The translations under genes were made by a program, and so were the position numbers. This document shows, in pieces, positions 6,301 through 53,570 of a stretch of DNA of 64,000 nucleotides. Under the pieces are notes generated by a model. It was not told where the DNA came from. It did not search any database and saw nothing but the letters and a program-made list of their open reading frames with translations. The DNA is taken from assembly GCA_021229015.1 (NCBI GenBank), contig CM037783.1, forward strand, positions 58,972,516 through 59,036,515. The letters run 5' to 3'. How positions within the stretch are numbered: position 1 is the stretch's first letter; each line of letters opens with the position of its first letter. Source of the stretch: Solen grandis. Taxonomy: Eukaryota; Mollusca; Bivalvia; Adapedonta; Solenidae.

Positions 6301-9300
6301 AAAAGACCTATGCGAACAGCATAAAACCAGATCAGCCTGCGAGTAACACGCAGGCTGATCAGGTTTTATGCTGTTCACTGCTCCTCAGTGGTCTGGAGAT
6401 GAGGATTTTGTAATTAAATTTGGTAAGGTTTAACTGTGGTTTTCTGCAGATCAGGCTTTATGTGATACCTATTGAGTGCGTCAAAATGAGTCTATATGAG
6501 TGAAAGGGTTAATGATAACTATTCTAAACCAGCTGTGTGATGATGAACCTTTGGCCTAATAGAGTTGACAAAACAATGTACCAAAAGGTATACCACAAAA
6601 GAAATCCAACCCAACTGTACCAATTAGTGTCTATAACATGAGAAAGAAATACAGTTATTAACTCATTACCAATAGTAGTACTTCCAGGAAATTATGGATA
6701 CTTGTGGAGGGACAGAGACTGAGGAAATGGAGTCAAAGGAAGGTTTCAATACTTCAACACACCAAAATACATGCATACAAAATGTTTGAATATCAAACAA
6801 CAAAGTTAAATGAACTTATTCAGATTGAAAACTGCTTTCACCTCCTTAGTTTAGCTTGACATAGTGCTAAATGATGTATTTGAGAGGTAGGGGGTTCCTA
6901 CACACAATAAAACAGTCTCTTGTTGTGTTAAGTCATGACATACATGTACTTACCGGTTTCCCTGTACTGTCCGAAGACCAGGTCAGCTGGGTCCATGGCC
7001 GCAGCAGAGCCGATGTGTGTCCCTTCCTCCCCAAAGTTGGTCATGTAGAAGGATATCCTGCCCTGGCGCTGGGCATCATACAGGATCTTGTCCATGGCAT
7101 TCAGAAGTGTCATGTCCTTGTACATTTTTACACACATCTCCTCACCCAGCTGACATGTAGGAAGAAACAATAAAATCAATAAATTGTCCAATCAGATCAA
7201 TCTCAATACAAAACAGAAACTGAGCTGTTGCAGACTTTTTATAAATCCACAATCTGTTGACATTTCTCTTTGGTTCTGTATTAAAGATACCTTTTGGTAA
7301 GAATTGTTGCAATATATTATGTTCATTGAATATCAGACCATGCAAACTGTGCTGGTATCATATTTTTGTACTGATTCACTTCTGTAATCAAATCATATTA
7401 GATTCTGTTTACCATGTTTCAGTACATACATAGGAGAACAAAAGGGTGTGTTTACAAAAAAAAAGATACAATCCCTTAGATATCACATTGTGGCTTAGGC
7501 ATATTCTTATGAGAAATGGCCCTATATACATGGCCAAATTATGTTTCTTTACTTGTTTGTTGGGTTTAATAGCTCATCAACAGTATTTCAGTTCTTTGGA
7601 GACTATGTCTACATTAAACAGATATAGTGCTGCCACACTGCAATATCACGCCATAGACATGTGTCATGATACCACATCCAGTCACATTATCCTAACACTG
7701 GGCCAACCAGTCCTGGAACTACATGTATCCTTATATGCTGAGGGCCAAGCATGGAAGCTATACCACTGCCATTTTTTACAACTTTGTTATTTCACGGCTG
7801 GGGATCAAACCCATGACCGCTAGATTCCAGGGCAGATGCTCTAACTTCATGGCCAATGGATCAAATATGCCAAATTATGTAGTTCTAGTGCCTGTATCCA
7901 AACTCTGCATAATGACTTTACATCACATGTTGTTGTACAACTACATACACTTACCTTTGGATCATCTTCCTCATTTACCACCTGCCCTTTTGTATCCATG
8001 ACTCTATACCTTGGAATATGTTCTTGTTCATCTGGGTTAATGAACTTCATATTGTATGTGAACTTTTTGTCTTCAGTTAGACTTGACAGCAGACCCTTCA
8101 TAAAGAATACATAAACAAATAAAAATAGGTCTGAAGTTAACAAATTATCATGTAGAACTTCATAAAATACAACACTAGGAAACAAGAGTTGTTGGAACGA
8201 CACATAAGCCCACCTCCCTCACTCCCATTGAGGTGACTGTGACCTTGATCTTTGACCAATCTACTATCATGACAATCACCATGAAGTTTGAGGAATGTGG
8301 GACAAGCATTCTCCAGTTATTGATCAGAAATGACTTTCACATTCAAGGTCACTTTGACCTTGACCTTTGACCAACTGACCCCAAAATCAATAGGGGTCAT
8401 CTACTAGTCATGACCAATCACCCTATGCAAGTTTGAGGAATATGGGCCTAATCATTCTCCAGTTATTGATTGGAAAGCGAAGTGGTCTACCGAAGGACCA
8501 ACCATCCGACAGACCGACCAACATTTGCAAAACAATATGCCCCCTCTTCTTCAAATGGGGGCATAATAATAATATAAACAAGTAACTGGTGTTGTATGCA
8601 ACACATAAAGTCCCCTACCGGCTCCACCTTGACTCAATATGGTAATCAATCCCATTTTTTGCCATATTTTCACTATTTCCGTTACCAAAGCAACCACAAT
8701 TTTAGTCGAAGAACAAAAATAAAATGACGTGCATAATCTACACATTGCCATCTAGTCATATACCAAGTTTCATCAAGTTAGCTTGCTAAGTTATCGCGGG
8801 ATCCCATTTTTTGCCATATTTTCACTATTTCCGTTACTTTAACAACCACAATTTTAGTCGAAGAACAAAAATAAAATGACGTGCATAATCTACACATTGC
8901 CATCTAGTCATATACCAAGTTTCATCAAGTTAGCTTGCTTAGTTATCGCGGGATCCCATTTTTTGCCATATTTTCACTATTTCCGTTACCATAGCAACCA
9001 CAATTTTAGTCAAAGAACAAAAATAAAATGACATGCATAATCAACACATTGCCATCTAGTCATATACCAAGTTTCATCAAGTTAGCTTACTTAGTTATCG
9101 CGGGATCCCATTTTTTGTCATATTTTCACTATTTCCGTTACCATAGCAACCACAATTTTAGTCAAAGAACAAAATAAAATGACGTGCATAATCTACACAT
9201 TGCCATCTAGTCATATACCAAGTTTCATCAAGTTAGCTTGCTTAGTTATTGCGGGATCCCATTTTTTGCCATATTTTCACTATTTCCGTTACCATAGCAA

Positions 9301-12300
9301 CCACAATTTTAGTGGAAGAACAAAAATAAAATGATGTGCTTAATCTACACATTGCCATCTAGTCATATACCAAGTTTCATCAAGTTAGCTTGCTTAGTTA
9401 TTGCGGGATCCTATTTTTTGCCATATTTTCACTATTTCCGTTACCATAGCAACCACAATTTTAGTTGAAGAACAAAAATAAAATGACATGCATAATCTAC
9501 ACATTGGCATCTAGTCATATACCAAGTTTCATCAAGTTAGCTTGCTTAGTTATTAAGTTATCACGGGATCCAGATTTGAGCGGACAGACGGACGGACAGA
9601 CAGATGGACGGATGGACAGATGGACGGACAGAAGGACCGAGGGCAAACCTATAGTCCCCTCTGGTGTGAACACCGGTAGGGGACTAATAACAAGACCTGA
9701 TGGTATTACGCACTAGTTTTTTCAGGCTTTTTTATCAAAGTTATGTCAAAGGTTAAGGTCAACTGCATAATGAAGAGGTCCATCCACTTAAGCAGCTGTC
9801 CAAATAATCATGCAATCCAGTGACACATGGAAGTTATAGCAGATTAACCAAAAGGTAAACCTGTCCAGACGCCGGTTTTTTTCATCAAAAGTAGGTCAAA
9901 GGTCAAGGTCACAGGGTCAACTGCATGATGTAAAGATCCCTCCACTTAAGCAACTGTCCAATATTGAAACAATCCAATGAAGGACACAGAAGTTGAAGCG
10001 GACGCCTGTCGATGCCCAACACCTTCCCGGACATCATCAATTAAAGGACAGAATTTTTCGTTGAAAAACCTGTCCAATAAATACAACTATGGGGCTCAGG
10101 TTGTGCTACAGAACAAGGTTGATCACAATTCATGAGATTACTGCATCGACTAGTCAGGGTTTTTTCCCTCTCCAATTTCAATGGTAACTCATTGAAAATG
10201 TCATACAGATGCATACACAAACTAGAATTATCACTAAAGGTGATACCACCTTGTTTTCATGTAGGCAACCCTCTATTAAACAATAACATGCAGACGGTTG
10301 TATTCAAGCAGAAGAATGTGAATAGTCTCAACACTGTTAAATGCTTGAATGTAGAAAATTTCATTTCAGATGATGTTATTCATAGTTCCGTTTGCCAAGC
10401 ATAACACAGTACAAAATAATTGGACAAATCAACTTCTTTACTATAAAACAGGTACAATGTCTGGTAGATTATAAATTGTTAAATCAGTCAGTAGTGGCTT
10501 TATTTTGAATTATAGCAAATTTGTCATCATAGTATTATTTTATGCTAAAATGAACCATGTTTTTATTTTCAAAAATCAGACTTAAATTCAGAAATCACAT
10601 AGTGTTAGTAAGGCTAAATAATCCAACAACACATTTGAAGATTTTTTTAAATATATACTAAATTTGTCAAAAGAAAGAAATCTTAACAACTGAATAATTA
10701 TGTAGATTACATGAACACCAACATTCATGTTCCTTCATTCTGAATCATTTCCCAAAAATAATTTCAAAATAAATACTTCTTCTTTCCGTCCTGCTATAAA
10801 GACTTGAAAATACCAACTTTCTTTTTCAAGCATCTGTTCAACTTCATATAACTGGCACCAGTTTCCTATGACCACTGTCACAGCCCAGTATCAGGACAGC
10901 TTAAAAACCAGCTTGACTTTCAGGGTTTGAAATTAAGCTAGCATACTCACTAAATGCGAGTGGACATTTTGAAATGCAAGTGCAGTTACAAGATGGCGGT
11001 TTTCTGGAAAGACAGAATAGACCCACCACTCTGTCATATGGGGCCAGAAACTAAAATTACATGCTCAGCTTGTTGTCACTGCATGCTATGGTTCTAACTT
11101 CATAGTTTTGCACTGTGTTGTTAAAATTGACACCTGACTCTTTACAAATAAAGAATTTGAAACTTTAAAATTGCGAGCTGATTTTTCATTTAGAAAGTAA
11201 AAATATTTACTACTTGCTAAAAATAGCAAGTGCAAAATCTGGCAAAATTCAAACCCTGGCTTCTCTGTGTCTCACTGTTTTCCTGGTTTAATCTTGCTTG
11301 TATGTTTGTTTCCTTTTACCATTCTTTAACAACTTTGATGCATGTTGCAATTTGGGATAGAACCTACAATCTCTTGTTAACTGGGCAGATACACCTGGTC
11401 ATAAGCAGTGGACACTAATGGTGTCTTGGGATCCTAACTTAAGGACATAACTGCTAGGTGTCCTGTCTGGATTCTTTCTTTTCCATTTTAAAAGTAAAGT
11501 GAGCAGCCACGTTTATTGCAAACGAATATAATCATCTTCAAAAAACATTCTTCATAGTAACCATCTTTGATAAATGGCAATTTTTCAATCCATGGTTGTG
11601 CGAATAAAGCTGTCATAAATCCAAATGGTACAATAGGAAATCCTTCTTTTCAGAGGGAACTTCTGTATTTCAAACTCTGGCCATCAATACTTGGTTTTAA
11701 TCCTGCACATCTTTAAATCATCATGATATTTAAAATGAATGTCAGTGATTTCAAATTGAGCCCAGGCGTGTGTTAAGTATGGTTGACTAACCAGTTTTCG
11801 GGGTATAACAAGTTTTCAGGGTATTTTACTTTTACACCGTTTGCGCGTGAGAACGTGATATGACGAGTTGTTTTCGCTGTCCCATATGATCAAAACAAAT
11901 GTCAACCATGCTCTAATATTCAAATTAAGACATCATGTGACTTCTTGTGTAAATTCTGGACAATGTTTAAGATGCACGTCCATTTCATTAAAATCTTGAA
12001 CTCGTATTTGATTAGCTATTTTGTAGATCAAACTCATCTGAATTATTTAAATTGACATATTTTCAAACAAAAATCCATTTATATTTTTTATTTAAGTTAA
12101 TACAACTTACAGGTTTTTTTCAGGAAACTAAATGTTTCAATTACCCATAATAAGTCACATGATGGCTTAATTGAAAAAAAAAAGGTTTTTTTATTTATGT
12201 TTTTAGTCAAATATATAATTTATTAAGGGGTTGGAAAATAGCTTGTGCGAGAAGCTTTTTAAGATGTGTAAAGTATATGTTTTGTGATGAATATGTGTAA

Positions 12301-35315: not shown

Positions 35316-35429
35316 TGGGTTAGGGTTAGGGTTAGGGTTAGGGTTAGGGGTTAGGGTTAGGGTTAGGGTTAGGGTTAGGGTTAGGGTTGGGTTAGGGTTA
35401 GGGTTAGGGCTAGGGGGGTTGGGTTAGGG
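35316..35429 (+). repeat. Interstitial telomeric array A, (TTAGGG)n
   Basis: About 18 repeats of TTAGGG with a few variants (ggggttaggg, gggttggg, gggctagggg). The G-rich strand runs left to right, so the telomere-distal side is to the right. It joins cassette copy 1 at 35430 without any intervening base. Confidence 0.97.
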
Positions 35430-35464
35430 TATAGGCTTGAAACGAATGTTGACCCGTCAACAGA

Positions 35465-35580
35465 TGACGCAACACGTGACCCAAAACAATATGGCTGACA
35501 GTCACGTGCTCTTTTTCCCTGCAATGATTGGTTGTTACGGCATATGTCTCTTACTATCTGACTTCACTATACATTTTTCC
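35465..35580 (+). promoter_or_regulatory. Conserved promoter block of the cassette
   Basis: All three copies keep aacacgtgac (or aaaagtgac in copy 3), a YY1-like aatatggctgacag / aaaatggctgacag, a second E-box gtcacgtg, and an inverted CCAAT box (gattggttg) before the UTR exon. Equivalent blocks lie at about 38523-38640 and 43283-43395. Promoter function is inferred from motif content and position. Confidence 0.5.
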
Positions 35581-35672
35581 TCGCTTTTGTCAGTTACGCT
35601 TTGCAAGTTTATGTGAAAGGATGTGATAGTGATTTATATTTCTGGATTTTTGTGCTACCTACTTTTTTGAAG

Positions 35673-36508
35673 GTTAGTTGATCTTTTGCATTTCATTATT
35701 TTCTTTCTTTTCCTTTGAATTGATATCATAACGTGGTGATTTTGAGTAAATGGATTTATTTTAATTTATAGTTAAAGTAGTTATTATTTCGTCAGAATTA
35801 TAATCAAACAAGTATTGGTTGTTATTTATATATTCCACTTCTCTTTCACGATTCATTTTTTTGAACAAATAAGTAGCATTGTGTCATAGTTTTTCTTTTT
35901 TGAATATATATTGTGGAGTTATTAAATTTAGACCTTAATATATCATAATTAAAACTGTGTTTGTTAATAGAAGTAAAAATATATGATTAGAAGCTTATTT
36001 TTTTATAGGACATAACTTTAAATTTTTAACTATTTTATCGAGATTATCATATCCTCAATCTGCAAGTAAATTTACCTCTAGTTTACTCCAGCCCTAACCC
36101 AATACCCTAACTCTAACCCTCCGTCATCTCAGTACCGATTTAAATTTTAAACATTTATCGAGATTTTTTAATTTCTGCATCATGCATTTGGAGTAAACTC
36201 TTTTGCGACTAGTTTACTCCAACCCTTACCCCTAACCTAACCTTAACTGTAAAACCTGTTTTGTCAGTCACTATTCATGTTTTATGACTTTTTCTTGAGA
36301 TTAAGTTCATTCCTCGTTTGGAGTAAACTCTAGTTACAGTTAGTTTACTCTTACCAAACCCTTAACCTTAACCATAACTCAAAAACCCGTGAGACCCTAA
36401 CCGGATTCACTTAAGGGGTTAACTGAAACTGTGATTTGGAGTTAATTAATCAATATGAATTCAATTACCAAAATTCCTATTTAATTAATAGTATTTTATC
36501 CATTTCAG
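35673..36508 (+). other. 5'-UTR intron of the cassette with CCCTAA motifs and hairpins
   Basis: Donor gaag|gttagt here (gaag|gtaagt in copies 2 and 3) and acceptor catttcag directly before the ATG. The sense strand holds C-rich telomere-like motifs (ccctaaccc at 36092-36100, ctaactctaaccct at 36107-36120, more near 36221-36245 and 36356-36375). It also holds perfect inverted repeats: ggagtaaact / agtttactcc at 36190-36199 and 36211-36220, and ggagtaaact / agtttactc at 36320-36350. Confidence 0.6.
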
Positions 36509-38441
36509 ATGGCCGATTCCGAGGACGATGAGGTGGAAAATCTACATCTGCTAGACACAGCGTTAGAGAATGGTTTGAGTTTTGCTGAATGCTTTAGGAA
36601 GTATGAAAGTGTTGAACAGTTTTTGCTACGTGATAAATACATATCTGTCCGAGGAACTAACATAACATCTGAAGCAGATCTGGAAGAACTTGATTTCAAG
36701 TCTGATATTGATGGAGTAACCATAGTCTGGAAAAAGCATTGCGGATGGTTTTCTGTCGAAATTCAGACACCTAGATTTACTGCCAGTAGGTATTTTTGGA
36801 TTGAAAAAACTGTTCCCGTTCTAAAGAAGCATTTGAAATTGTCAATGTATAGTGAAAACAGTTAAGAGTGTTGAAAGAAGCAGTCGGGACACAGCTTATA
36901 TATGACGGACAGTGGGAGACCTGGCTTGGAATTCTTCCTGACTTCAAGGAAGCTTCATCTTATCCACACGACTTGCAAAAAAAGCTTGTTGTTCAGTTTA
37001 TGGAGAGACTGAGATTTAATTTTCAGTTAGAATTGAAGAAAATGTGGATTCGTGGTGAGGCATTACAAACATTAGCAAAGAATAACTTGAACGCTGCTAA
37101 GAGGGTTTTTGTCTTACCAGGAGATGAAGCTAGGATCCTCCAAAGTTTTAAAAACGCCTTGCGAAATACAGAACTGACCGAACTTCCAAATTTCAGAAAA
37201 ATTGTGTTTAGTTTCCGTTTTGGAGATAAATGGAGCGGATTAGTACCACTGCCAATTGTAGATGAGAGAGCGGTGGAAGAGATGTGTGTTCACGTAGGTC
37301 ATGCCATATCTTCCGGAACAATGGATCTCTTTTGGAGCCGGCAAGGCATTAAAGAAGTGATGGTCCTCGCTGCCAAGTTATATCTGCCTTTTCCTTTGGA
37401 CAATGTGCAAACTTTCAAACGTCTTTGGATGGTAGGGATCTCAGTATTTCTGCCTTGCTTAGAGACGTTTGTCCCGAAGACATCAGATTTGCTCAGATGT
37501 ACAGTGATTTACCACACCGTTATCCAACGACGGGTTCATCCTATTTCTGCATCAATACTGATTGTAAAAGGTATTCAAAGTACACCATCTGAGAGAAGTC
37601 TCTACAAAGATGCATCGAAATATCTTTCTGAAATTGAAAGCAATTTTTCCAATGTCGCGACGGGGTATGCAGATTAGAGTTCGTGGTAAGCTTGAAACAT
37701 ATCAGAAAAGAATTGACGCAGCAAACCTAATACGACAGGACAAACTCGAACAACTACTAGCTACCCATTCCATGATTGTACCATTCATGAAAGGTTTCAA
37801 CATTATATACAGGTTGCGAAATGTTGGTCTTCATTTGCATCGAGAATTATTTGAAGCCTTTGAGACCAAGAAGGGGACCGGTGATATAGACAGTGTTTGG
37901 AAACATTTCAGTGTGAATTGGCTGTGGAAAAACTTCTCTGGGGACATCCAATGGCTGGCACTTCAAGAATTTATTCCATAACCTAGGTCCAGGTTTAGAG
38001 TACCATCTCGTAGCCGCACAGACCGAATGGGATTTCTGTCTTTGGAAAACTGTTTTGCTTGTTGTATAGATGGAACTACATTGCCTCCATTGCGTCTGTA
38101 CACAAAAAACATAACAGCGCAACGTCGGATTGAGAGCGCAAGTGGTTTCGTAAATTTGGTTGGATGTAGTGAAACTGTCATAGGCAAAAAACTTTTGATG
38201 ACTTTACTAAAAGAATTTCATTCAATTGGCAATTTGTTTCTGACACTCGATCATTTCACAATGCTGTTGAAAGCTTCACACGGAATGCTAATAAGAAAAT
38301 AGTCGGTGGAATCACAATCGCTGAACTCATACAAAGGTTGATGTCAGTTAAGAAGGGAAAATGGCCGATGGTATTTGTCGTATTAAGGACCTTTCTTCAG
38401 AATCTAAAGGTCAAAGTTGAGTCATCTATTGAAAAAGGTAT
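36509..38441 (+). pseudogene. Cassette coding region, copy 1 (unrecognised protein, frame-broken)
   Basis: The ATG follows the acceptor directly. The N-terminus is acidic (MADSEDDEVENLHLLD), then comes a mostly alpha-helical-looking, Lys/Leu/Glu-rich protein. A one-base loss gives a stop at 36863-36865. The next frame runs to 37677, and later pieces are in other frames (37610-37981, 38027-38302). Compared with copy 2 most breaks are single-base indels. Conserved-looking pieces include IDGTTLPPLRLYTKNI and FMKGFNIIYRLRNVGLHLHR. I recognise no domain in this part. The protein is cut off by array B. Confidence 0.55.
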
Positions 38442-38487
38442 AGGGTTAGGGTTAGGGTTAGGGTTAGGGTTAGGGTTAGGGTTAGGG
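38442..38487 (+). repeat. Interstitial telomeric array B
   Basis: Nearly perfect TTAGGG repeats. They follow the cut 3' side of cassette copy 1 and join cassette copy 2 at 38488. Confidence 0.97.
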
Positions 38488-41400
38488 TATAGGCTTGAAA
38501 CGAATGTTGACCCATCAACAGATGACCCAACACGTGACCCAAAACAAAATGGCTGACAGTCACGTGATCTTTTTCCGTGCAATGATTGGTTGTTACGGCA
38601 TATGTCTCTTACTATCTGACTTCACTATACATTTTTCCTCGCTTTTGTCAGTTACGCTTTGCAAGTTTATGTGAAAAGATGTGATAGTGATTTATATTTC
38701 TGGATTTTTGTGCTACCTACTTTTTTGAAGGTAAGTTGATCTTTTGCATTTCATTATTTTTTTTCTTTTCCTTTGAATTGATATCATAACGTGGTGATTT
38801 TGAGGAAAAGATTTATTTTAATTTATAGTTAAAGTAGTTATTATTTCGTCAGAATTATAATCAAACAAGTATTGGTTGTTATTGATATATTCCACTTCTC
38901 TTTCACGATTCATTTTTTTGAACAAATAAGTAGCATTGTGTCATAGTTTTTCTTTTTTGAATATATATTGTGGAGTTATCAATTTTAGACCTTAATATAT
39001 CATAATTAAAACTGTGTTTGTTAATAGAAGTAAAAATATATGATTAGAAGCTTATTTTTTTATAGGACATAACTTTTAATTTTTAACTATTTTATCGAGA
39101 TTATCATATCCTCAATCTGCAAGTAAATTTACCTCTAGTTTACTCCAGCCCTAACCCAATACCCTAACTCTAACCTAACCTAACCTTAACTGTAAAACCT
39201 GTTTTGTCAGTCACTATTCATGTTTTATTACTTTTTCTTGAGATTAAGTTCATTCCTCATTTGGAGTAAACTCTAGTTACAGTTAGTTTACTCTTACCAA
39301 ACCCTTAACCTTAACCATAACTCAAAAACCCGTGAGACCCTAACCGATTCACTTAAGGGGTTAACTGAAACTGTGATTTGGAGTTAATTAATCAATATGA
39401 ATTCAATTACCAAAATTCCTATTTAATTAATTGTATTTTATCCATTTCAGATGGTCGATTCCGAGGACGATGAGGTGGAAATCTACATCTGCTAGACACA
39501 GCGTTAGAGAATGGTTTGAGTTTTGCTGAATGCTTTAGGAAGTATGAAAGTGTTGAACAGTTTTTGCTACGTGATAAATACATATCTGTCCGAGGAACTA
39601 ACATAACATCTGAAGCAGATCTGGAAGAACTTGATTTCAAGTCTGATATTGATGGAGTAACCATAGTCTGGAAAGCATTGCGGATGGTTTTCTGTCGAAA
39701 TTCAGACACCTAGATTTATTGCCAGTAGGTATTTTTGGATTGAAAAAACTGTTCCCCGTTCTAAAGAAGCATTTGAAATTGTCAATGTATAGTGAAAACA
39801 GTCTAAGAGTGTTGAAAGAAGCAGTCGGGACACAGCTTATATATGACGGACAGTGGGAGACTGGCTTGGAATTCTTCCTGACTTCAAGGAAGCTTCATCT
39901 TATCCACACGACTTGCAAAAAAAGCTTGTTGTTCAGTTTATGGAGAGACTGAGATTTAATTTTCAGTTAGAATTGAAGAAAATGTGGATTCGTGGCGAGG
40001 CATTACAAACATTAGCAAAGAATAACTTGAACGCTGCTAAGAGGGTTTTTGTCTTACCGGGAGATGAAGCTAGGATCCTCCAAAGTTTTAAAAACGCTTT
40101 GCGAAATACAGAACTGACCGAACTTCCAAATTTCAGAAAAATTGTGTTTAGTTTCCGTTTTGGAGATAAATGGAGGGATTAGTAAAAACCTCAGTATTTC
40201 CTTTTGGAGCCGGCAAGGCATTAAAGAAGTGACTGGTCCTCACTGCCAAGTTATATCTGCCTTTTCCTTTGGACAATGTGCAAACTTTCAAACGTCTTTG
40301 GATGGTAGGGATCTCAGTATTTCTGCCTTGCTTAGAGACGTTTGTCCCGAAGACATCAGATTTGCTCAGATGTACAGTGATTTACCACACCGTTATCCAA
40401 CGACACGGGTTCATCCTATTTCTGCATCAATACTGATTGTAAAAGGTATTCAAAGTACACCATGTGAGAGAAGTCTCTACAAAGATGCATCGAAATATCT
40501 TTCTGAAATTGAAAGCAACTTTTTCCAATGTCGCGACGGGGTATGCAGATTAGAGTTCGTGGTAAGCTTGAAACATATCAGAAAAGAAATTGACGCAGCA
40601 AACCTAATACGACAGGACAAACTCGAACAACTACTAGCTACCCATTCCATGATTGTACCATTCATGAAAGGTTTCAACATTATATACAGGTTGCGAAGTG
40701 TTGGTCTTCATTTGCATCGAGAATTATTTGAAGCCTTTGAGACCCAAGAAGGGGACCGGTGATATAGACAATGTTTGGAAAACATTTCAGTGTGAATTGG
40801 CTGTGGAAAAACTTCTCTGGGGACATCCAATGGCTGGCACTTCAAGAATTTATTCCATAAACCTAGGTCCAGGTTTAGAGTACCCATCTCGTAGCCGCAC
40901 AGACCGAATGGGATTTCTGTCTTTGGAAAACTGTTTTGCTTGTTGTATAGATGGAACTACATTGCCTCCATTGCGTCTGTACACAAAGAACATAACAGCG
41001 CAACGTCGGATTGAGAGCGCAAGTGGTTTCGTAAATTTGGTTGGATGTAGTGAAACTGTCATAGGCAAAAAACTTTTGATGACTTTACTAAAGAATTTCA
41101 TTCAATTGGCAATTTGTTTCTGACACTCGATCATTTCACAATGCTGTTGAAAGCTTCACACGGAAATGCTAATAAGAAAATAGTCGGTGGAATCACAATC
41201 GCTGACTCATACAAAGGTTGATGTCAGTTAAGAAGGGAAATGGCCCATGGTATTTGTCGTATTAAGGACCTTTTTTCAGAATCTAAAGGTCAAAGTTGAG
41301 TCATCTATTGAAAAGGTATATAAACAGTTTATCTCTTGGTTACTTTCCTGCGTTTAGGTCACATGACGAGAGTCGAAATGCAGTTATGTGCTGGGAGTTA

Positions 41401-42300
41401 AGTATGGTTATTGGTCCATTGTTGACATATCAGGAAGGGACAACGGAAGTATTGACGTGGATAGGGTGCATGCAGTTGTTGTTTCAAGCATGGAGAAATG
41501 AAACTTTGCCATAGTTCATTGTACAGAGAAAACCCATTTCCTTGGATAAAGCCTGTTTGGGAGAAACTTGCCGAACAGCAATTGAAAGAAGTTGACCTGA
41601 TTAAGGTGCTAGTCTTTGTCTCTTGTTTGCATTGATTCAACTTGGAAGGTACGTCGACTATCGAAAGCTAGGTTCTGTTGAGAGACAGCTTCCTGTCAGT
41701 CAATCGTCCCTCAGGATCCTTCAAATTCAGTGCAAATTTCAAGTCCCATTTGTGAATACAGTAAAGTTGTACCGCCTTCATCCCTCAATCCCGATAAAAT
41801 TGGGACAAAAAAGGTCTATAGAGGACACCTCAAACATAAGAGAAAAAACACAAGTGGTAGAAGAAAATGTACCAAAGAGTGACGACAACGTTGATCAACC
41901 CTACCGAATAGGGGATTATGAACTTAGCATAAGAACAACAACAGAGTCAGAGGAAGCTCAGATCAAACACAAACCAAGCAGTCGCTGTAACAGCGTATGG
42001 ACGTCAGTTGAATTGGGTCTTCTTAATGAAGTGATTCAACAAATCCACAGTGGACATTGTTTAAGAAATGGCAGTACTATCAAGAACGTTGTCGGGAAAT
42101 GCAAATACCAGATAGATCCCTGAAGCATTTAAAGTAAAACTGAAGCGAATAAAAAAGAAAACAAATGAAAATCTTGAGCTCGGGCTTATTGAATTTATTG
42201 CCAACTATTGTGTATTTTTGTCAGGACTATTAATTACTTCCTTACACAAACCGTCAGCCTTAGAGTAAGCCGCATTGAAACTCAATACCTATATAGGTAT
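38488..42300 (+). mobile_element. Telomere-embedded gene cassette, copy 2 (longest)
   Basis: Starts with the same bases as copy 1 after array B. It carries the same promoter, a UTR exon to 38730, a shortened intron (38731-39450) and a coding relic from 39451 to about 42123-42250. It lacks about 105 bp of the intron between two taacc motifs and about 70 bp of coding sequence near 40172-40205. The 3' boundary is undefined, since the sequence runs to array C at 43119 with a SINE at 42650-42840. Confidence 0.6.
39451..42123 (+). pseudogene. Cassette coding region, copy 2 (extends to the probable C-terminus)
   Basis: The start is MVDSEDDEVE, then a one-base loss. Further frames cover the same protein as copy 1 and continue past copy 1's break. 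The 3' part contains NPFPWIKPVWEKLAEQQLKE (about 41533-41592) and a last open stretch 41623-42123. This stretch has a polar, Glu/Ser/Thr-rich linker (residues about 64-125) followed by VWTSVELGLLNEVIQQ and KNVVGKCKYQ. The WTxxExxLLxxxI pattern resembles the first helix of Myb/SANT domains, but the rest of that fold is not evident. Status and function are unknown. Confidence 0.5.
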
Positions 42301-42309
42301 GTATATATG

Positions 42310-43118
42310 AATGCATGTATGTCAAAAATAATGAAAATAGATTTTAAATTAATTGTGTAAATGGCAAAATTTATGGTTAAATATAGGGTAAGGTTTGGAG
42401 TAATGGGTTCGGGTTAGAGTTAACACCCCTTTTTCAGTATAAAGAGTATACCTTATAAACTTTATCAGGTAAGGGGTTATGGGTATGAATGTTTATATTT
42501 GATTTTTTAAACCATATTTTCACTAGTGAATATATTTCAAATGTCTTGTATGATATGATAATATGCATTCTAATAAATGTTAATGTGATTTAATTGATTA
42601 AACGTTTTGTTTTTCTATTGACCTGAAATACTATCTCCGTCAGATGTAACTCGGTGCGACAATATTTCGGTCATATAGCGACGTTCAGCTAATTACTGGT
42701 GGAGGAAACCCCGAATGCAGAGGCACCCGGGTAAACCCCCGACCTTCCGCAAGCCAGCTGGAAAGCTTCCTCACTTAAAATCCGAGACCCTGCCGGGAAT
42801 CAAACCCCACAGCGGTGAGGGGCTAAGTGATTGTTAAAGGAAATCCAGTTCTGTTTAAATTGATCTAAAAATTAGAAAGTGTAGTATATTCATCATTGGA
42901 AATAACTGCGATGCAGTATAAACCATGGACAAGACGTAATATTACATTTATTTAATATAATTGCTTTATAATTTAAAGTTTTAAAAAATCAATTAAAAAA
43001 AGAAATCATGTGAAAGAAATGAAAATAATCAGCACACTTGAAAACAAACATTGATGTGTAAGAAAATGATTAGTTTCTATAAATTTCAAATATATGAACA
43101 AAAATTGAACCACAGTTG
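42310..43118. other. Tail of copy 2 region, no gene
   Basis: AT-rich, with a telomere-like degenerate stretch at about 42385-42480 (atagggtaaggtttggag, ggtaaggggttatgggt), and an inverted SINE before array C. Confidence 0.5.
42650..42840 (-). mobile_element. tRNA-headed SINE with conserved core (inverted)
   Basis: The minus-strand head is cacttagcccctcaccgct with B-box-like gtggggtttgattcccgg. The core has ccagctggcttgcggaaggt and ctgaacgtcgctatatgac. The core matches 53440-53570. It lies just before telomeric array C. Confidence 0.7.
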
Positions 43119-43248
43119 TAGGGTTAGGGTTAGGGTTAGGGTTAGGGTTAGGGTTAGGGTTGGGTTAGGGTTAGGGTTAGGGTTAGGGTTAGGGTTAGGG
43201 TTAGGGTTAGGGTTAGGGGTTAGGGTTGGTTGGGGTTAGGGGTTAGGG
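43119..43248 (+). repeat. Interstitial telomeric array C
   Basis: About 21 TTAGGG repeats with variants toward the right end. It joins cassette copy 3 at 43249. Confidence 0.97.
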
Positions 43249-45416
43249 TATAGGCTTGAAACGAATGTTGACCCGTCAACAGATGACCCCAAAAGTGACC
43301 AAAACAAAATGGCTCACAGTCACGTGATCTTTTTCCCTGCAATGATTGGTGTTACGGCATATGTCTCTTACTATCTGACTTCACTATACATTTTTCCTCG
43401 CTTTTGTCAGTTACGCTTTGCAAGTTTATGTGAAAAGATGTGATAGTGATTTTTTATTTCTGGATTTTTGTGCTACCTACTTTTTTGAAGGTAAGTTGAT
43501 CCTTTGCATTTCATTATTTTCTTTCTTTTCCTTTGAATTGATATCATAACGTGGTGATTTTGAGTAAATGGATTTATTTTAATTTATAGTTAAAGTAGTT
43601 ATTATTTCGTCAGAATTATAATCAAACAAGTATTGGTTGTTATTTTATATATTCCATTCTCTTTCACGATTCATTTTTTTGAACAAATAAGTAGCATTGT
43701 GTCATAGTTTTTCTTTTTTGAATATATATTGTGGAGTTATTAAATTTAGACCTTAATATATCATAATTAAAACTGTGTTTGTTAATAGAAGTAAAAATAT
43801 ATGATTAGAAGCTTATTTTTTTATAGGACTTAACTTTAAATTTTTAACTATTTTATCGAGATTATCATATTCCTCAATCTGCAAGTAAATTTACCTCTAG
43901 TTTACTCCAGCCCTAACCAATACCCTAACTCTAACCCTCCGTCATCTCAGTACCGATTTAAATTTTAAACATTTATCGAGATTTTTTAATTTCTGCTCAT
44001 GCATTTGGAGTAAACTCTTTTGCGATAGTTTACTCCAACCCTTACCCCTAACCTAACCTTAACTGTAAAACGTTTTGTCAGTCACTATTCATGTTTTATG
44101 ACTTTTTCTTGAGATTAAGTTCATTCCTCGTTTGGAGTAAACTCTAGTTACAGTTAGTTTACTCTTACCAAACCCTTAACCTTAACCATAAATCAAAACC
44201 CGTGAGACCCTAAACGGATTCACTTAAGGGGTTAACTGAAACTTGATTTGGAGTTAATTAATCAATTGAATTCAATTACCAAATTCTATTTAATTAATAG
44301 TATTTTACCCATTTCAGATGGCCGATTCCGAGGACGATGAGGTGGAAAATCTAATCTGCTAGACACAGCGTTAGAGAATGGTTTGAGTTTTGTGAATGCT
44401 TTAGGAAGTATGAAAGTGTTGAACAGTTTTTGTACGTGTTTAAATACATATCTGCCCGAGGAACTAACATAACATCTGAAGCAGATCTGGAAGAACTTGA
44501 TTTCAAGTTGATATTGATTGGAGTAACCATGTTGGAAAAGATTGCGGATGGTTTTCTGTCAAAATTTCGGGGACACCTAGATTTACTGCGTAGGTATTTT
44601 TGGATTGAAAAAAACTGTTCCCCTTTTCTAAAGAAGCATTTGAAATTGTCAATGTATAGTGAAAAAGTTAAAGGTGTTAAAAAGAAGCAGTCGGGACACA
44701 GTTATATATGACGGACAGTGGGAGACCTGGCTTGGAATTTTTCCCTGACTTCAAGGAGCTTCTTTCTTATCACACGACTTGCAAAAAAAGTTGTTGTTCA
44801 GTTTATGGAGAGACTGAGATTTAATTTTCATTTTAGAATTGAAGAAAATGTGGATTGTGGTGAGGCTTTACAAACATTAGCAAAAAATAACTTGAACGCT
44901 GTAAGAGGGTTTTTGTCTTACCAGGAGATGAAGCTAGGATCCTCCAAAGTTTTAAAAAAAGCCTTGCGAAATACAGACTGACCGAACTTCCCAAAATTTT
45001 AGAAAAATTGTGTTTTAGTTTCCGTTTTGGAGATAATGGAGCGGATTAGTACCACTCCAATTGTAGATGAGAGAGCGGGAAGAGATGTGTGTTCACGTAG
45101 GTTTATGCCATATCTTCCCGGGAAAAATGGACTCTTTTGGAGCCCGGGAAGGCATTTAAAGAAGTGACTGGTCCTCGTGCCCAAATTTATCTGCCTTTTC
45201 CCTTTTGGGCAATGTGCAAACTTTCAAACGTCTTTGGATGGTAGGGATTCGTATTTCTGCCTTGCTTAGAGAGTTTGTCCGAAGACATCAGATTTGCTCA
45301 GATGTACAGTGATTACCACACCGTTATCCAACGACACGGGTTCATCCTATTTCTGCATCAATACTGATTTTTAAAAGGTATTCAAAGTACACCATCTGAG
45401 AGAAGTCTTTACAAAG
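43249..45416 (+). mobile_element. Telomere-embedded gene cassette, copy 3 (distal side truncated)
   Basis: Same start after array C, a UTR exon to 43490, an intron 43491-44317 and a coding relic from 44318. It is cut after acaaagag and passes into array D. Single-base indels become frequent from about 44280 on, toward the contig end. Confidence 0.6.
44318..45416 (+). pseudogene. Cassette coding region, copy 3 (5' part only, many indels)
   Basis: Starts MADSEDDEVENL like copy 1, then one-base gains and losses every 20-40 bases break all frames. It ends at array D in the part corresponding to about 37605 in copy 1. Confidence 0.5.
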
Positions 45417-45495
45417 AGGGTTTGGGTTAGGGTTAAGGTTAGGGGTTTAGGGGTTAGGGTTTTGGGTTAGGGTTTGGTTAGGGTTTAGGGTTGGG
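45417..45495 (+). repeat. Interstitial telomeric array D (degenerate)
   Basis: TTAGGG-like repeats with many length errors (tttggg, ttaaggttagggg). It begins where cassette copy 3 is cut off. The errors suit the poor quality of this contig end. Confidence 0.9.
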
Positions 45496-45875
45496 CCAGG
45501 GGCATCTCATACAAGGCTCCCATACAAAGGCCTTTTTTCCATTGTAAAGGCCTTTTGGTTGACTCCATGTGAAGGCCTTTTTCTCAGTAATGGCCCGTGT
45601 TGACTGCTATATGAAGGCCCGATGCTATTTTGAAGGGGGCCTTTTTTTTTCTCATGTGAAGGCCGGGCCTTTACAGACCCCCGCACTGTTATTAAAGGGC
45701 CTTGTTCTGTCAAAGTAGTCAAGAACCGTAACTCTGCATGAGTAGTATTGACATGGTTATCCCATATACAGGGGTATGTTCCATAAAAGGCCTTTTTTTG
45801 GGGAAAAAAAAAACCCCCAAAAAAAAAAAATTTTGTATTTTTTGGGTTTTGGGGGGAAAAATATGTAAAAAGTTC
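45496..45875. repeat. Irregular repeats of an AAGGCCTTTT motif at a contig end
   Basis: The motif aaggcctttt or close variants recurs about every 30-45 bases (about 45528, 45546, 45572, 45615, 45643, 45658, 45787). Homopolymer runs next to the gap suggest low base quality. Confidence 0.5.
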
Positions 45876-45975
45876 NNNNNNNNNNNNNNNNNNNNNNNNN
45901 NNNNNNNNNNNNNNNNNNNNNNNNNNNNNNNNNNNNNNNNNNNNNNNNNNNNNNNNNNNNNNNNNNNNNNNNNNN
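45876..45975. other. Assembly gap (100 N)
   Basis: Exactly 100 N. With the gap at 25350-25449 it isolates a 20.4-kb contig, so the order and orientation of that contig relative to DESI2 and PC are not proven. Confidence 0.98.
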
Positions 45976-53439: not shown

Positions 53440-53570
53440 TTCAACAGTATTTCAGTCATATAGCGACGTCCAGCTAAGTACAGGTGGAGGAAGACCCAGA
53501 ATGCACAGAAGCATCCGGGTAGAACCACAAATCTACCGCAAGCCAGCTGGAAGGGAGAAAGTGTAGTTCT
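53440..53570 (-). mobile_element. SINE core fragment (inverted)
   Basis: Shares tcatatagcgacgtccagct and ccgcaagccagctggaa with 42650-42840. Confidence 0.7.

Follow-up and report, generated by a model that had tools for sequence, protein, structure and literature searches.

A gene cassette arranged in tandem inside telomeric TTAGGG repeats of the bivalve Solen grandis

The stretch analysed here, referred to as the window, comprises 64,000 nucleotides of the Solen grandis contig CM037783.1 (assembly GCA_021229015.1, positions 58,972,516 to 59,036,515 of the forward strand), and it contains three plus-strand copies of a gene cassette, family A, separated by telomeric repeats. All three begin at one common base, as the initial annotation had stated, with TATAGGCTTGAAACG at 35430, 38488 and 43249 directly after TTAGGG-type repeats. 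The array opens with a proximal TTAGGG tract that includes degenerate repeats (35317..35429). Copy 1 (35430..38442) ends at the cut GGTATA/GGG (the slash marks the cut), with 2 nt common to the repeat, and the identical cut occurs twice on scaffold C16 (L044, L046). A TTAGGG tract (38443..38487) leads to copy 2 (38488..43120, cut GTTGTA/GGG), another (43121..43248) to copy 3 (43249..45417, cut ACAAAGA/GGG), and a degenerate distal tract (45418..45495) follows. Passage into new TTAGGG-type repeats of the same strand had been noted for copies 1 and 3; copy 2 does likewise, so that all three distal junctions (38442, 43120 and 45417) share this property. The sequence TTAGGGTTAGGG is present 30 times in the window, on the plus strand only; every occurrence lies in the proximal tract or in the two tracts between copies, none in the degenerate fourth (45418-45495), and its count in 100 shuffles of the window was 0.

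Copies 1 and 2 are approximately 98% identical in their aligned parts. Copy 3 is 94.8% identical to copy 1 with 60 gap openings, and an assembly gap of 100 N begins at 45876; for these reasons copy 3 looks like a low-quality consensus. Only gene 1, the first of the two genes of longer units, is retained in the window, and its reading frame is broken in every copy: in copy 1 (36509..38442) the 3' part is missing, in copy 2 (39451..42168) the stop codon region is reached after internal deletions, and in copy 3 (44318..45417) a fragment is left. Because the sequence quality of these copies is poor, the interruptions may be partly assembly errors. Copy 2 is truncated as well, since longer units elsewhere run beyond its end, and it lacks gene 2 and the satellite that such units carry.

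The layout, a gene cassette with a fixed start repeated in tandem inside telomeric repeats, is real and recurs beyond the window. When the whole assembly (1.32 Gb, 811 contigs) was searched for the start motif, 50 exact matches were found in 22 clusters on 12 scaffolds; every cluster (22/22) uses a single strand, and 14 of them hold 2-5 starts. Upstream sequence was examined for all 50 starts, and telomeric repeats lie directly before 48, preceded in at least 42 cases by exactly TTAGGGTTAGGG, a pattern that would miss a few variants. The expectation of many copies with the same 5' junction was therefore borne out. Units stand in tandem with interstitial telomeric tracts between them, their spacing varying from about 3 to 10 kb with truncation and satellite length, and blocks of units have telomeric repeats of the same orientation on both sides.

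In the longest unit examined (L029, scaffold C12), a 170-bp satellite array containing TTAGGG adjoins a body of about 6.7 kb, giving approximately 9.2 kb in all. Longer units carry two convergent genes. Gene 1 is a single open frame of 931 amino acids, separated from the fixed start by about 1 kb that includes a putative leader intron, whereas gene 2, on the opposite strand, begins near the distal end and would encode 281 amino acids if its putative exons are joined; the introns of both were deduced from splice-site-like sequence. Among the gene 1 matches in the assembly, which rest on 49 of 169 candidates scored, 10 of 64 are full length without stops. A dispersed repeat, possibly SINE-like as judged by eye, lies between the two genes (window 42659-42765, 84% identical to 53444-53552), and similar pieces are present in the stretches from C5, C7 and C9. 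Near the proximal end GAGTAAACTC occurs twice (L029:818-957), with four one-mismatch sites in the body where 0.3 would be expected, and the palindrome GAGTTAACTC has nine exact sites in the satellite array (L029:6895-8918); the palindrome and the proximal variants may be candidate binding sites. Predicted RNA folding at the unit start was no better than in shuffled sequences (z -0.11 and 0.01).

No convincing Pfam domain was found in gene 1: six Pfam families each match one of 22 members (best E 0.0053), none of them a helicase, and the main part of gene 2 has one Pfam match, below the cut-off and again not a helicase. Sequence searches of the PDB gave two chance matches, then none, then three at E 0.56 or worse. 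Foldseek returned 82 matches to the whole gene 1 model, none at E 0.001; VIA coverage of the model is mainly of the C terminus, and this end is predicted to form a three-helix, DNA-binding-like domain. An origin from a virus was also considered and rejected: a peptide pattern matched 21 stretches, none of which held a relative, no viral fold matched at E 0.001, and the start motif joined to TTAGGG had no exact match in viral contigs.

These searches bear on the possibility that the cassette is a mobile element that encodes its targeting machinery, in which gene 1 and gene 2 would insert or replicate the unit specifically at TTAGGG and thereby fix the proximal junction, and the distal cuts would reflect later erosion or incomplete copying. 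We regard this as unlikely, since Pfam revealed no transposase, recombinase or polymerase domain in the 22 gene 1 members, the fold search of the whole model gave nothing at the threshold mentioned, no terminal inverted repeats were seen (judged by eye only), and blocks of units appear to be copied whole, as described below. The known transposase domain expected of a DNA transposon with terminal inverted repeats was not found by Pfam.

Another reading would take the element as a Terminon/Athena-type retroelement seen backwards, with the C strand as its RNA. The proximal junction would then hold the RNA 3' end, ...CCTATA(CCCTAA)n, and ordinary 5' truncation would account for the distal cuts. 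A fixed proximal and a variable distal end fit such a scheme, and according to PMC6431247 the rotifer Terminons are telomere-flanked, attached by a fixed end, mostly truncated at the far 5' end by telomeric repeats, arranged head to tail and equipped with several and varied additional open reading frames (ORFs). Terminons, however, possess a reverse transcriptase and, beside the telomeric complement at the attached end, a hammerhead ribozyme. No reverse transcriptase was detected among frames of at least 100 amino acids in L029, the longest unit examined, or in Pfam scans of gene 1 and gene 2; no Rfam hammerhead matched L029 at E up to 5; and the 931-amino-acid gene would be antisense to the supposed RNA. 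This reading thus seems highly improbable, and retroelement readings in general (Terminon, MoTeR, HeT-A) were set aside for want of both features.

Perfect (TTAGGG)10 forms nine clusters in the assembly, when tracts within about 10 kb are counted as one, and a gene 1 relative lies inside or beside seven of them (three on C6, one on C12 and three on C16); in all seven the G strand is the sense strand of the gene. At the remaining two, C1:110.15 and C19:32.5 Mb, no gene 1 relative was among the matches listed for the candidates that were scored. Relatives of gene 1 number 31 in other sources, including the clam Mactra antiquata. A relative, P0023, is 36% identical to family A and was used to search the assembly for diverged copies (identities below refer to P0023 unless family A is named). 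Two intact frames were found at C16:2.23-2.25 Mb (38%), an open stretch of 703 amino acids at C6:15.14 Mb (39%), and further diverged copies on C5 and C19, one C5 copy being 37% identical to family A. Those at C16:2.23 Mb and C6:15.14 Mb sit between (TTAGGG)10 tracts. Diverged relatives of gene 2 occur at C3:9.76-9.78, C8:11.98, C13:40.99-41.00 and C5:69.94 Mb, at repeated spaced positions on C3 and C13, which suggests further element families. It is conceivable, and we put it forward only tentatively, that family A belongs to an old bivalve-wide lineage of animal telomere-specific mobile elements, neither retrotransposon nor known transposon, which would encode an unknown-fold protein that binds DNA through its C-terminal domain and would use TTAGGG as their home target.

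The surroundings of the arrays were also inspected. Common tandem satellites precede arrays on different scaffolds, one set at C7:17.04, C16:0.13 and C17:47.85 Mb and another at C6:22.99, C12:16.83 and C19:4.68 Mb; the C7:17.04, C16 and C17 arrays have one common satellite-TTAGGG junction. A second sequence, family B, begins with CCAGGGGCATC directly after TTAGGG at three places: in the window on the plus strand, abutting the distal tract and continuing until the assembly gap (45496-45875), in C12 (L029:9271-9792), where TTAGGG follows again, and at C6:22.99 Mb beyond the distal tract. Between two units on C4 (L009-L011), TATAGGCATTTTG (about 23 bases) and AATAGACCATTTTACG (about 1.4 kb) likewise begin after, and end in, TTAGGG-type repeats. 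Tandem satellites are found elsewhere in the window too, at 8649-9554 (about 152 bp) and 1279-1788 (about 146 bp).

Such neighbours could be taken to mean that the cassette is an ordinary subtelomeric host gene family within a satellite mosaic, passively shuffled between chromosome ends and having no selfish role. In favour of this, family B, the 170-bp satellite and the two C4 sequences, all without known genes, are embedded in the same manner, and several proximal flanks are shared satellites. Passive shuffling nevertheless appears distinctly improbable to us, given that the TTAGGG junction is kept at 48/50 starts and that a gene 1 relative accompanies 7/9 long TTAGGG clusters in constant orientation, two of these relatives being diverged.

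The distal side of the units was predicted to end variably, and this proved correct in part. Ten distinct cuts were identified, and all of them pass into G-strand repeats of the TTAGGG type. The window supplies three and C6:22.99 Mb one; another is common to C7:8.57 and C6:69.08 Mb, C4 has one, and C13:36.9 Mb and C16 have two each, one of the C13 pair sparing no more than about 18 bases of its unit. Several cuts recur, namely GGTATA (window, twice on C16), GTTGTA (window, C16) and CCATTA (C7, C6). On the other hand, constant distal ends, which had been named as evidence to the contrary, do exist to some extent, because CCATTA/GGG repeats through arrays on two scaffolds (C7 and C6); moreover, the preceding unit ends within the 170-bp satellite in at least 11 of 30 upstream stretches. 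At the 10 cuts the overlap with the repeat, set by eye, averages 1.8 nt versus 0.66 by chance (P approximately 0.0013; leaving out C4, where the register is irregular, gives 0.010). An excess of this kind is expected if telomeres were added to eroded ends.

It was proposed initially that a cassette attached to a chromosome end was eroded, healed by telomere addition and then received another cassette. The overlap at the cuts agrees with the healing part of this scenario, but attachment one by one does not accord with the way in which blocks recur as blocks. The two-copy block of the window consists of the cut GGTATA with a tract of 47 and the cut GTTGTA with a tract of 130. At C16:41.5 Mb copies alternate between GGTATA with tracts of 53 and 47, GTTGTA with 121 and CCCCA with 126, and the two loci are 95.7-99.3% identical near the ends. 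Arrays thus move and grow as blocks, and recombination fits this better than separate insertions. Recombination-based spread, mentioned at the outset as an alternative, gains most from the identical cuts and near-equal tract lengths on another scaffold.

We consider it probable that family A is a telomere-resident, gene-carrying element family working like the Y' elements of yeast. Under this hypothesis, recombination would be the motor, telomerase would heal the cuts, the home position would be the chromosome end, and gene 1 might aid its own spread or retention. A TTAGGG end or a broken tract would pair, on another chromosome, with the tract immediately proximal to a unit, and copying outward from there, by break-induced replication or unequal exchange, would keep the proximal junction. 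Where copying halts or the new end erodes, which could happen anywhere, distal sequence would be lost first, and telomerase would add TTAGGG to the new end, favouring cuts at which a few bases match the repeat. Further rounds would add units and produce head-to-tail arrays, and whole blocks would pass between chromosomes. Gene 1 could survive distal erosion because it is placed next to the fixed end. At C16:48.95 Mb there are three full-length gene 1 frames, one cut that falls short of gene 2, and no listed match to the latter; gene 1 may survive there while gene 2 is lost because it adjoins the protected proximal side.

Several observations weigh against the Y'-like hypothesis. Recombination and telomerase are inferred steps that were not seen directly, and the first six junctions, evaluated with a stricter script, gave a P value of only 0.038. 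A search with PF12009 (telomerase RNA-binding domain) had no match here and none in control genomes either, and is thus uninformative. Among six gene 1 copies, 6 synonymous and 10 nonsynonymous variable codons are too few differences to show selection. Two of the 50 starts, C12:43.16 and 44.40 Mb, lack TTAGGG and follow a common upstream stretch that is 99% identical; copies of this kind had been proposed as refuting evidence, and they are limited to these two.

Other observations against it concern the position of the arrays, as a chromosome-end location is suggested for one scaffold only. In favour of the hypothesis, scaffold C17 (47,876,210 bases) terminates within an outward-pointing unit. 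Its last stretch, however, matches from unit position 1274, after at least about 4 kb of unrelated sequence, and the last 9.7 kb contain no TTAGGG. Read most simply, another insertion would have interrupted the unit that starts at 47,862,830; the unrelated stretch ahead of the final partial unit (L080:1-4003) is perhaps another element inserted into it. The remaining 21 of the 22 clusters are internal in their scaffolds, and one, 130 kb from a scaffold end, points inward. At C6:22.99 Mb no gap was seen in 15 kb and 8.8 kb of other sequence lies beyond the distal tract, which makes an internal site likely. No (TTAGGG)10 is found at scaffold ends, the C1 tract lying 525 kb inside its scaffold. 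Scaffolding may have misplaced arrays, since an assembly gap lies in the array or within about 1.2 kb of it in 7/9 clusters examined at length (the C8 stretch examined ends inside its array).

The initial annotation compared the cassette with Drosophila HeT-A/TART, a comparison which presumes a retroelement and was not upheld, as no reverse transcriptase was found in the longest unit examined. HeT-A and TART also form head-to-tail telomere arrays whose exposed side erodes, but they are non-LTR retrotransposons replacing telomerase repeats. Telomeric non-LTR retrotransposons (MoTeR, TRAS/SART, HeT-A) combine a reverse transcriptase with a fixed 3' end, and neither feature was found here. According to PMC7367193, MoTeR of Magnaporthe oryzae forms TTAGGG-separated arrays in which new telomere caps the truncated copies, arrays grow after breaks, and relics persist at internal sites; in this retrotransposon, though, truncation affects the 5' ends, while the clam element is fixed on the side 5' to gene 1. 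In C. elegans survivors that maintain telomeres by ALT, according to PMC4595603, the TALT1 block lies between interstitial telomeric repeats of the same orientation and is copied to chromosome ends, TALT2 being copied there in tandem. TALTs, in contrast, are unique host fragments amplified in telomerase-deleted survivors, whereas the clam unit has a protein family that occurs in other species, with 31 relatives.

Tandem units with interstitial telomeric tracts are common to the clam element and Y' of Saccharomyces cerevisiae, whose units measure 5-7 kb, and the logic of tract-primed copying, distal loss and capping of the cut is as described for Y' and MoTeR arrays. Y' encodes a putative helicase, whereas gene 1 has neither a helicase nor another convincing Pfam domain; telomeric repeats lie proximally at 48/50 starts here versus half of Y' elements; distal truncation is frequent here, and the host is an animal. 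The element works like Y' but belongs neither to Y' nor to any retroelement family tested. Passages on a coral satellite with a telomeric motif (PMC10236652) and on yeast assemblies (PMC10412453) contain no closer parallel, a term search of a bivalve transposon survey (PMC10294476) found no word with 'telomer', and no comparable mollusc element was found in the searched open-licence literature.

Gene-bearing, recombining telomere elements were known before from yeast (Y'), and similar blocks from telomerase-deleted worm survivors. If an animal naturally carried such an element together with a conserved protein, this would demonstrate that selfish genes can reside in telomeric repeats. The recombination and healing of telomeres could be studied in such a case, which would also offer an unknown-fold protein family as candidate telomere binders. 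If the tentative reading of a bivalve-wide lineage were true, a part of bivalve chromosome ends would consist of gene arrays.

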